Assembly: GCA_946554525.1 (NCBI GenBank)
Contig: CAMNSE010000010.1
Span: forward strand, 1-47,155
DNA: 47,155 nucleotides
Reading direction: 5' to 3'
Source: an uncultured Mycoplasma sp.
Lineage (GTDB): Bacteria > Bacillota_I > Bacilli_A > RF39 > UBA660
A program made the translations under genes and the position numbers. Positions 1,012-3,927 of this stretch are shown piece by piece (within the stretch, counting starts at the first letter, position 1; every line of letters starts with the position of its first letter). The notes beneath the pieces were generated by a model that saw only the letters and a list, made by a program, of their open reading frames with translations, did no database searches and was not told the DNA's origin.

Positions 1012-1734
1012 TTAGTACTCTATCTTCTCTAAATATAGGCCTTTTGGAGGGGCACATAGAAATTCTTTTTTAATTTCGGGATGATCTAGGGCATATTTTA
1101 ATTCCTCTATACTTGCTTTTTTTCTTGCCACATCTAACATAGCCCCAACTAGGTTTCTAACCATATATCTATAAAAGCTTTTGCCAATAAATTTTATTTC
1201 TAAAATATCTTTCTTCTTCTTGAATTTTATATTATAGATTATACACTCGTAATTAGTTCTAGTGCCCGCAACAAAATTTTCAAAATTGTGTGCTCCTAAA
1301 AATACTTTGCGACATTTCTTCATCTTTTTAATATCAATTTTATAATCCGGATAAAACATATAGTCTTCATATAAAGGATTAAACTCCCCTAAATTTATTT
1401 TATATAGATAAGTTTTTCTTTTGACATTAAATCTGGCATGAAAATTATCATCTACTATACATACATCTTTAATATAAATATATGGTTTTACTAAACTATT
1501 TAATGCTTCTTTTAAATGAGCCGCATCAATTTTAATATTTAAATCAAAAGATGCTTTTTGATCTAGTGCGTGTACTCCTTTATCAGTCCTTCCTGCACCT
1601 TTTATTTCAACCGGAGCTTTATTTATTTTAGTTAAAGCCCCTTCTATACTTTTTTGGACGGTATTCTCATTATTTAATCTTTGAAAACCATAAAATTTTG
1701 AGCCATCATACTTTATACTTATTAAATATCTCAT
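1012..1734 (-). CDS. truA: tRNA pseudouridine synthase A
   Basis: TruA converts uridines 38-40 in the anticodon arm of tRNAs to pseudouridine. The 240-residue protein has the catalytic motif GRTDKGVHA with the nucleophile Asp51, the N-terminal YDGSKFYGFQ block, and the ARF(N) and YMVRNLVGAML blocks of the family. Its start codon overlaps the stop codon of the upstream EcfA-like ORF (TAATG), so translation is probably coupled. In Firmicutes truA normally follows ecfA1-ecfA2-ecfT and precedes rplM-rpsI. That order is kept here except that ecfT is missing. Confidence 0.97.
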   Translation of the reverse strand: MRYLISIKYDGSKFYGFQRLNNENTVQKSIEGALTKINKAPVEIKGAGRTDKGVHALDQKASFDLNIKIDAAHLKEALNSLVKPYIYIKDVCIVDDNFHARFNVKRKTYLYKINLGEFNPLYEDYMFYPDYKIDIKKMKKCRKVFLGAHNFENFVAGTRTNYECIIYNIKFKKKKDILEIKFIGKSFYRYMVRNLVGAMLDVARKKASIEELKYALDHPEIKKEFLCAPPKGLYLEKIEY

Positions 1735-2354
1735 TATTCTTGCTCCTTAATTCTATAAATAGCTTTTAATAAATCTTTTACATCCATATAATCTTCTAAT
1801 TTAATTCCTTTTTCTCTTATTAAATTAATTATCTTATTAATCTCTGGAATATTATAATAGTTTGATAAATCAAAAAATTCGTTTTTTTCATATTTTCTGG
1901 ATATGTGGTTATCCTCTACTAAAATTATGGATGATGCTATATCTTGTAAAAATAATATATCATTCGTATAAATTAAAAATGTTTTGTGAATATCTTCTGC
2001 TAGCTTCTTAAAAAGTCTTTTAAAATTCTTTTTCTCGAAATCATTTAGCCCCTTTTCAAAAAAATCTAAAATTATATTTTCTTTATTTTCTATCAAAGCT
2101 TTTGCAAGATTTACTTTTTTTATTTCTACTTCTGATAACTCATTTGATTCTTTATTTAAATATTTTTCTGTTAACATTACCATTTTTAGGGACGCTACAT
2201 CTTTTGGGCTATTTAAATAATCTTTTACAGTTCCTAAAAATTTATAATCTGTTACTAAATATGATGTACTGGTATTCGTTGTTAAAATTGTCTCTCCTAT
2301 AACACCATAAATACGGCCTTTTTCAAGACTATCTAAAATTCTTGCTACTTCCAT
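1734..2354 (-). CDS. Degenerate EcfA2-like ABC ATPase homologue lacking catalytic motifs
   Basis: This 206-residue protein sits where ecfA2 (ATPase of the energy-coupling-factor vitamin transporter) is normally found. It still shows the ABC outline: GVIGET where the Walker A loop should be, LSEVEIKKVNLAKALIENK in place of the LSGGQ helix, IILDFFEKGLND in place of the Walker B and D-loop, LIYTND for the H-loop and PEINKIINLIREKGIKL like the EcfA C-terminus. No GxxGxGK(S/T) is present, the catalytic Glu is Phe, the H-loop His is Asn and the signature glycines are gone. ATP hydrolysis is not expected. It overlaps its neighbours on both sides and has no internal stops. It could be decaying, or kept as a non-catalytic protein. 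Confidence 0.7.
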   Translation of the reverse strand: MEVARILDSLEKGRIYGVIGETILTTNTSTSYLVTDYKFLGTVKDYLNSPKDVASLKMVMLTEKYLNKESNELSEVEIKKVNLAKALIENKENIILDFFEKGLNDFEKKNFKRLFKKLAEDIHKTFLIYTNDILFLQDIASSIILVEDNHISRKYEKNEFFDLSNYYNIPEINKIINLIREKGIKLEDYMDVKDLLKAIYRIKEQE

Positions 2355-2947
2355 AAATCTTTCACCAACTCTTCATTTGAATAATAAATATTATTTATAA
2401 CGCCATAGTATTTTAATCCTTTTGATAATTCAACTATAGTAGGAAGTTTGAATCCTAATCTAGTTAGTATTTTTTCTTCTAGTAAAACACTTTCGCTTTT
2501 TCCTTCCATAACTATCTTTCCATCATGAACAACTATTATATTTTGAAGAAACAATGTCTCTTCTATTTCGCTTGTATAATTTATAATTCTTTTTTCTTTT
2601 TCCTTTAAATAATTTATTACTTTATGCTTAAATCCATCATCTAAATATGTTAAAACATTAAAAAATATTATAGTATCCTTTGGACTTTTTATATTACTTA
2701 AAATATTAATTTTAATTTTTTCACTTTTAGAATAGTTATTTTTTTCTAATAAATATTCACAGTTAAATTCCTTTAATAATTCTAAAGAAATATCTTCTAA
2801 CTTATTAGTATTATTCTTATCTATTACAATATATCCACGATTAATAAACTCTATTTCATCTTGATGATAATTAAACTCGGATGTAAATAATACTGTAGTA
2901 CTATTATTTTTAAATGTCTTACCATTTACTTTTATTTCTTGATACAT
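2345..2947 (-). CDS. Degenerate EcfA1-like ABC ATPase homologue lacking catalytic motifs
   Basis: This 200-residue protein occupies the ecfA1 position and overlaps the next ORF by 10 bases. Its C-terminal half keeps the EcfA1 pattern: NIIVVHDGKIVMEGKSESVL, then LTRLGFKLPTIVELSKGL, as in genuine EcfA proteins. The ATPase elements are lost: no Walker A, YSKSE where LSGGQ should be, IIFFNVLTYLDD in place of LDEATSMLDP, and Ser in place of the H-loop His. The ATG is preceded by AGGTGATTTAC. Intact frames in both paralogues despite loss of every catalytic residue argue against a recent knockout. Function is unknown. Confidence 0.7.
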   Translation of the reverse strand: MYQEIKVNGKTFKNNSTTVLFTSEFNYHQDEIEFINRGYIVIDKNNTNKLEDISLELLKEFNCEYLLEKNNYSKSEKIKINILSNIKSPKDTIIFFNVLTYLDDGFKHKVINYLKEKEKRIINYTSEIEETLFLQNIIVVHDGKIVMEGKSESVLLEEKILTRLGFKLPTIVELSKGLKYYGVINNIYYSNEELVKDLWK

Positions 2948-3410: not shown

Positions 3411-3869
3411 TTATTTTTTTAAACTAATATTAGCTTCATTCTCTAAGTATCTTTCGGCTTTATCTGTTAATTGTAGTGCACTGGAATCTAATTCATTTCC
3501 AAATATGAAATATCCTGCCGTCATTAAGTAAGATATATAATTCGGAATATTTATCCCGGGATTTGGAACAGCCTCTAATGTACCAGCCACTATTTCATCT
3601 ATAGTCCCTGGAAAACATTTTATTTGCGTTAAAAATTCATGTTTAAATTTCTTTTTATAAGCATCTGCTTCTATTACTGCTTCTTTTCTTGCTTCTTTTA
3701 TTAAATAATCTATATATTTTATTTTGCTCTCTAACTCTTTAAATTGCTGCATGTAATCTCTTATATTTCCAATTCTACCAATTTCAAACTCATTCTGAAT
3801 TTGGATTGCAACACTTTTTCCTATAAGCATTAAACTAGCTCTTTTTTCCTGCAATACTTTTAAGTCCAT
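3411..3869 (-). CDS. Unknown 152-residue soluble protein
   Basis: I do not recognise this family. The frame is open from 3884, but the GGAGGG ribosome-binding site lies inside the first five codons, so translation should start at the ATG at 3867-3869 (MDLKVLQEKRASLML). The first 90 residues are charged and helical, likely a short coiled coil (KELESKIKYIDYLIKEARKE). The second half has a Pro/Gly-rich stretch, PNPGINIPNYISYLMTAGYF. There is no signal peptide or membrane segment. It is a single gene between rpmE and the SGNH-like gene, all on the same strand. Confidence 0.75.
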   Translation of the reverse strand: MDLKVLQEKRASLMLIGKSVAIQIQNEFEIGRIGNIRDYMQQFKELESKIKYIDYLIKEARKEAVIEADAYKKKFKHEFLTQIKCFPGTIDEIVAGTLEAVPNPGINIPNYISYLMTAGYFIFGNELDSSALQLTDKAERYLENEANISLKK

Positions 3870-3927
3870 TAAAAATCCCTCCATAAGTAAGGATTATTTT
3901 AACATGATTAAAGTTAAATGTAAACAT

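Follow-up and report, generated by a model that had tools for sequence, protein, structure and literature searches.

An EcfA1-EcfA2 pair that lacks ATP sites and EcfT is retained under purifying selection in uncultured Bacilli

ATP sites are the defining feature of ABC ATPases. In the genome of an uncultured Mycoplasma sp. (RF39), we identified a pair of ECF ATPase homologues, here A1 and A2, that has lost all these sites as well as its membrane partner, EcfT, and is still kept by purifying selection. The pair is probably a former ECF motor recruited to act as a heterodimer without EcfT and without ATP hydrolysis; it would be held together through its C-terminal helices and would serve as an ATP-independent cytosolic scaffold.

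An EcfA locus without ecfT and without ATP-site motifs

The window, that is, the whole stretch of DNA analysed, spans 47,155 nucleotides (contig CAMNSE010000010.1, assembly GCA_946554525.1). On its minus strand, A1 (pseudo-EcfA1; positions 2345-2947, 200 aa), a degenerate ABC ATPase with an EcfA1-type C-terminal domain, is followed by A2 (pseudo-EcfA2; 1734-2354, 206 aa) and, directly 3' of A2, where ecfT would intervene, by truA (1012-1734; Pfam PseudoU_synth_1, E = 9.6e-31). Next come the ancestral downstream neighbour rplM (426-857; Pfam Ribosomal_L13, E = 2.3e-49) and, on the same strand, rpsI, inside which the window begins. Except for the missing ecfT, the genes are arranged as in the ECF locus of Bacilli, as stated in a preliminary description of this DNA, according to which the ancestral order ecfA1-ecfA2-ecfT-truA-rplM-rpsI is kept apart from ecfT. 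Both frames are intact and overlap each other (10 nt, 2345-2354, minus strand) and truA (1 nt), again as described. Within the A1/A2 overlap, the Trp-Lys-stop end of A1 encodes the Met-Glu start of A2, and sense codons overlap by these 7 nt in 28/28 loci of the genus and in 140 of the 147 loci compared overall. In relatives, an A1 end Trp-Lys/Asn-stop pairs with an A2 start Met-Glu-Val/Ile/Leu (LWK with MEV or MEI; LWN with MEL). Elsewhere in the window, a 157-aa ORF (3411-3884) has no Pfam match over the cut-off.

The genus of the window's genome comprises 36 genomes and is named from one locus labelled Candidatus Caccenecus avistercoris; we take Ca. Caccenecus to belong to the order RF39. 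The A1-A2 pair, with truA directly downstream and no internal stop, is present in 28 of the 29 assessable genomes; the other seven had either no truA match (six) or a truA cut at a contig edge (one). Among the assessable genomes, only G013 has truA and lacks the pair (locus L123, 3640-4978); the gene ahead of truA there presumably resembles that for hibernation-promoting factor. The end branch of G013, 0.25, is the longest among the 13 genus rows of one tree.

The ranking of NCBIfam matches, profile alignments and model matches identify A1 and A2 as EcfA1 and EcfA2 by descent, with the ABC fold retained. The top NCBIfam matches are ECF_ATPase_1 for A1 (TIGR04520; E = 1.7e-13, 50.7 bits) and ECF_ATPase_2 for A2 (TIGR04521; E = 7e-12, 45 bits), both far under the curated cut-offs of 315 and 330 bits, respectively; Pfam ABC_tran matches A2 with only 15.3 bits and A1 not at all. 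In hhalign comparisons of profiles of the 28 genus members with profiles of 11 EcfA1 or EcfA2 proteins of EcfT-bearing relatives, A1 and A2 aligned with intact EcfA1 and EcfA2 at 99.8% probability each. Among PDB sequences, the top match of the A1 profile is EcfA1, and that of the A2 profile is RNase L inhibitor, with EcfA2 lower in the list. The AlphaFold2 models of A1 (pLDDT 91) and A2 (pLDDT 85, with only about 62-69 in the C-terminal part) have EcfA1 (8bms_A) and EcfA2 (8bms_B), respectively, as their top Foldseek matches, and the corresponding VIA comparisons yield Z 18.0 and rmsd 3.0 over 198 residues for A1 and Z 16.8 and rmsd 2.1 over 163 residues for A2. A fold unlike that of ABC proteins would have counted against the preliminary description; the models match EcfA1 and EcfA2 instead.

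Among the 28 genus members with the pair, Walker A (GxxxxGK[S/T]) occurs in neither protein (0/28 for each). In A1, the region of the former Walker B, catalytic Glu and D-loop (2636-2674, minus strand) now reads TIIFFNVLTYLDD; the Walker B Asp is replaced by F, L, M, C or V in 28/28 members and the catalytic Glu by Asn (27) or Asp (1). The former H-loop of A1 (2561-2584, minus strand) is now INYTSEIE, with Asn123-Tyr124 invariant and the His replaced in 27/28 and present in one. In A2, the former P-loop (2292-2309, minus strand) reads YGVIGE, and YGLMGN in most relatives; at the former Walker B and catalytic Glu (2040-2078, minus strand; now NIILDFFEKGLND), Tyr (25) or Phe (3) stands in place of Glu, and the H-loop His codon (1962-1964, minus strand) now encodes Asn131, an Asn in all 28. 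Of the signature, the genus retains remnants, approximately LS..E.KK in A2 and LT..D.LK in A1, without the LSGGQ core. The preliminary claim that the pair is stripped of all ATPase motifs thus stands for Walker A, the catalytic Glu, the H-loop His and the LSGGQ core; 'all' is slightly too strong, given that the A2 Walker B Asp survives in 19/28 members and that a remnant of the signature helix is left. The substitutes at the dead sites are themselves fixed, A2 Asn131 in 28/28 and A1 Asn97 in 27/28 members; because several replacement residues are almost invariant, these sites are not drifting freely.

Repeated loss of EcfT across the family

As the preliminary description proposed for the locus, ecfT is gone, and its loss extends to the whole genome of the window (G000), which shows no match with Pfam CbiQ (PF02361) or with a profile built from EcfTs of the family itself. 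This second profile includes the diverged EcfTs of G037, G043 and G049, which Pfam misses and which were located by synteny. By both profiles, EcfT was not found in 34 of the 36 genus genomes. Of the three S component families searched (PF12822, BioY and PF07155), none was detected in G000; the 34 genomes without EcfT also lack PF12822 and PF07155, and BioY is missing from all 36. Thus, in these profile searches, neither the EcfT nor the S components of a group II ECF transporter, nor any other functional ECF module, were found in the window's genome. Each of the two remaining genus members, G011 and G013, has a three-gene S-A-T ECF cassette at a separate site, with a single intact-looking ATPase (L116:3076-4940 in G011, which also has the pseudo pair; L115:2072-3961 in G013, which has lost it). 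We considered these cassettes as the owners of the pair and rejected this assignment, each having an intact-looking ATPase of its own and being located elsewhere. In loci L092, L098 and L104, strongly diverged or shortened EcfT genes (250, 194 and 216 aa), missed by Pfam CbiQ, lie between A2 and truA.

In a sample of 243 genomes of the family, the EcfT profile matches 95 and the EcfA1 C-terminal profile 206; the A2 profile, which also picks up other ABC proteins (243/243), was not used for counts. The EcfA1 C-terminal domain is present in 91 of the 95 EcfT-positive and 115 of the 148 EcfT-negative genomes, and so is missing from 33/148 EcfT-less compared to 4/95 EcfT-bearing ones. The pair is therefore dispensable in some lineages, as also indicated by G013. 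We classed 147 loci for EcfT by the gap between A2 and truA: 31 have room for EcfT, 2 a remnant and 111 none, and 3 (G040, G249 and G107, with no truA in reach) were counted as unknown. Set aside from this count were L176 and L188 (EcfA1 identical to those of G252 and G119), G133 (in which no EcfA2 turned up) and three outgroups of the class (G066, G067 and G089); 79 of the 115 genomes that have the EcfA1 domain but no EcfT supplied loci. Among the EcfT-bearing loci, Walker A is present in both subunits in 24, in EcfA1 only in 6 and in neither in 1; among the 111 EcfT-less loci, which are not independent of kinship and over-represent the genus (28) and its sister clade, it is present in both in 5, in EcfA1 only in 47, in EcfA2 only in 2 and in neither in 57. 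The catalytic Glu is left in 9/111 (EcfA1) and 15/111 (EcfA2) of the EcfT-less loci.

EcfT was lost repeatedly while the pair was retained. On a truA tree of 142 rows (without G040, G249 and G107 and without G311 and G100, whose TruA is shorter than 200 aa), EcfT presence changes state 13 times by a quick method, on a topology that is poorly resolved, with many weak forks. Seven sister contrasts with and without EcfT have SH-aLRT of at least 80, namely, G275/G060, G057/G258, G037/G174, G110/G171, G288/G165, G038/(G164, G195) and G280/(G177, G294), and one clade of 80 rows (SH-aLRT 100) is entirely without EcfT. The rows are pair-bearing loci only, and the frequency of pair loss is not readable from this tree. 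These more than 100 related loci form a natural series from motor to pseudo-enzyme, with the stages represented in living lineages.

Linkage to truA and selection on the pair

A2 abuts truA in all 28 genus loci, with a gap of -23 to +4 nt, and the pair adjoins truA in three upstream settings. These are the genus, where we take the upstream setting to be the murA/GDSL side; loci L101, L109 and L113, where the genes upstream of A1 presumably resemble yabP, yabQ and divIC, with yabG further up, even though the genomes of these lineages are reduced; and the sister clade (L172-L189), where the upstream genes are, by our assignment, homologues of yvcK and whiA and sometimes an NrdG-like activase. 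In L129 and L131, extra ORFs intervene between truA and rplM. This arrangement would fit a TruA-associated factor: pair and enzyme would be translated from a single coupled message, and the pair would bind either TruA or the tRNAs that are its substrates. A contact between an ECF part and a tRNA enzyme has a precedent, to be treated as a lead, in the GatC-ECF contact predicted in Mycoplasma, which concerns an S-like domain and an EcfT-containing module (PMC13047044). However, the ecfA-ecfT-truA linkage is ancestral in Bacilli, start-stop overlap alone can keep it, and truA persists without the pair in G013. In mean-field DCA of 142 loci (Meff 129; the same five loci left out as from the tree), covariation of A1 and A2 with TruA appears no better than the phylogenetic background, and the A1-A2 scores are similar to those of A1-TruA and A2-TruA. 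We consider a TruA-associated role unlikely. The top A1-A2 pair in this analysis mirrors the gene overlap; the high-scoring pairs Thr170-Ile175 and Glu192-Leu178, located in both C-terminal domains, are candidate contacts, with TruA pairs scoring alike.

Linkage could also be all that is preserved. Under slow decay, the pair would have no protein function and would be kept only because its deletion would disturb translation of truA, and the tight start-stop overlaps, the disappearance of the EcfA1 domain from many EcfT-less genomes and the evolution of A1 and A2 at a faster rate than TruA all fit this explanation. The selection estimates speak against it. By NG86, omega (A1/A2/truA) is 0.11/0.17/0.11 for G028-G030, 0.14/0.17/0.18 for G004-G020, 0.19/0.15/0.08 for G008-G010 and 0.31/0.19/0.14 for G008-G021, so that these closest genus pairs span 0.11-0.31 for A1 and A2 compared to 0.08-0.18 for truA. 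When the comparison is widened to all genus pairs with truA dS < 0.9 (33 pairs), a range in which dS is partly saturated, the medians are 0.42/0.38/0.24; the sister clade, with ten pairs compared, gives omega values of 0.09-0.28 (A1) and 0.05-0.28 (A2). A1 and A2 are thus more relaxed than truA, yet far from neutral. About 6.8% (6-7%) of the single changes in the two genes would produce a stop, which, in a rough sum of nearest-neighbour divergence multiplied by the stop share, amounts to hundreds of stops expected under neutrality in the 28 loci; none is observed. The preliminary description, which took intact frames as a sign of selection for a non-ATPase role and named neutral dN/dS or stops in close relatives as signs of simple decay, is supported on both counts. 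Its suggestion of translation coupling as the role fares less well: alone, coupling does not explain amino-acid conservation and would require neither that nor some 400 codons. Given also the residues fixed at the former catalytic positions, simple decay is disfavoured, and we rate it as quite improbable.

Even less credible, to the point of being very improbable, is that the pair still is a transporter motor used by a very diverged EcfT and an S component elsewhere in the genome: family EcfTs may diverge beyond detection by Pfam, as those of G037, G043 and G049 did, but the profile that includes these finds none in 34/36 genus genomes, S components of PF12822 and PF07155 are missing from the same genomes and BioY from all 36, and, with P-loops absent from both subunits, ATP-driven transport is not expected.

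Proposed role of the pair and comparison with known systems

The reading we favour, an EcfT-free heterodimeric scaffold, is consistent with the distribution of conservation along the proteins. The C-terminal domain (2348-2500, minus strand) is the best conserved part of A1, with a mean pairwise identity in the genus of 0.68 versus 0.51 in the N-terminal part. Between genera, A1 C-terminal identity is 0.43 in nine EcfT-less compared to 0.42 in nine EcfT-bearing genera, whereas that of the N-terminal part is 0.26 compared to 0.42; unlike that of A1, the C-terminal identity of A2 drops after EcfT loss, from 0.46 to 0.33, a point against this reading. Within the genus, and likewise within the sister clade, whose A1 has 157-161 aa and A2 181-186 aa, every part of both proteins is again well conserved. 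We propose a retained heterodimer because the A1 C-terminal domain stays conserved and because dimerisation of group II A subunits is aided by their short C-terminal helices (PMC6828968).

Under this scenario, a group II ECF vitamin importer would have lost its membrane subunit, EcfT, leaving its two ATPases, of which the EcfA2 P-loop and the catalytic Glu residues would then have been the first parts to go. The intermediate EcfA1 could then bind but hardly hydrolyse ATP, its single ATP site possibly acting as structural glue. In the genus and the sister clade, the EcfA1 P-loop would have been lost too, and new residues fixed at the dead sites. EcfA1 and EcfA2 would stay heterodimeric through the C-terminal helices and what remains of the nucleotide-binding domains, and the dimer may serve in the cytosol as a scaffold that binds some other partner in place of EcfT, TruA being a candidate by linkage. 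The repurposed dimer that the preliminary description suggested is a plausible role for the pair. A second, EcfT- and ATP-independent function of EcfA1-EcfA2 dimers that is older than EcfT loss in the family is a tentative possibility; it would explain how the pair outlasted several independent EcfT losses while transport was abandoned. If so, the same dimer would moonlight in Bacilli that still have the ECF transporter, Bacillus subtilis among them. That a vitamin importer was lost deserves attention because RF39 Bacilli have highly reduced genomes in which several vitamin pathways are missing (PMC6784871). The series of loci suggests that, in reduced gut Bacilli in which this route of vitamin import has been abandoned, ECF ATPase dimers may have a hidden second role.

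In our literature search, conducted largely outside subscription journals, we found no description of EcfA pairs devoid of ATP sites; we regard the pair as a probable exapted pseudo-ATPase ECF motor. Like group II EcfA1 and EcfA2 (TIGR04520 and TIGR04521; PDB 8bms, 5d3m and 4hlu), to which it is homologous in sequence, the window pair has the EcfA1-specific C-terminal domain, the gene order before truA and, along almost the entire chain, the ABC NBD fold. Unlike these, it has no Walker A, catalytic Glu, H-loop His or intact signature, is 70-80 residues shorter and comes with no EcfT and no S component found. Heterodimeric ABC transporters with a degenerate nucleotide-binding site retain one consensus site as well as the membrane domains. 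The family intermediates resemble these transporters in the asymmetric loss of catalytic residues in one subunit, whereas the window pair has lost both sites along with the membrane subunit. Finally, the double Glu-to-Gln mutant of an ECF module provides a non-hydrolysing EcfA-EcfA' pair (PMC10368641; PDB 8bms). It parallels the intermediate that keeps the EcfA1 P-loop without the Glu and differs in being engineered and in having both P-loops and EcfT.
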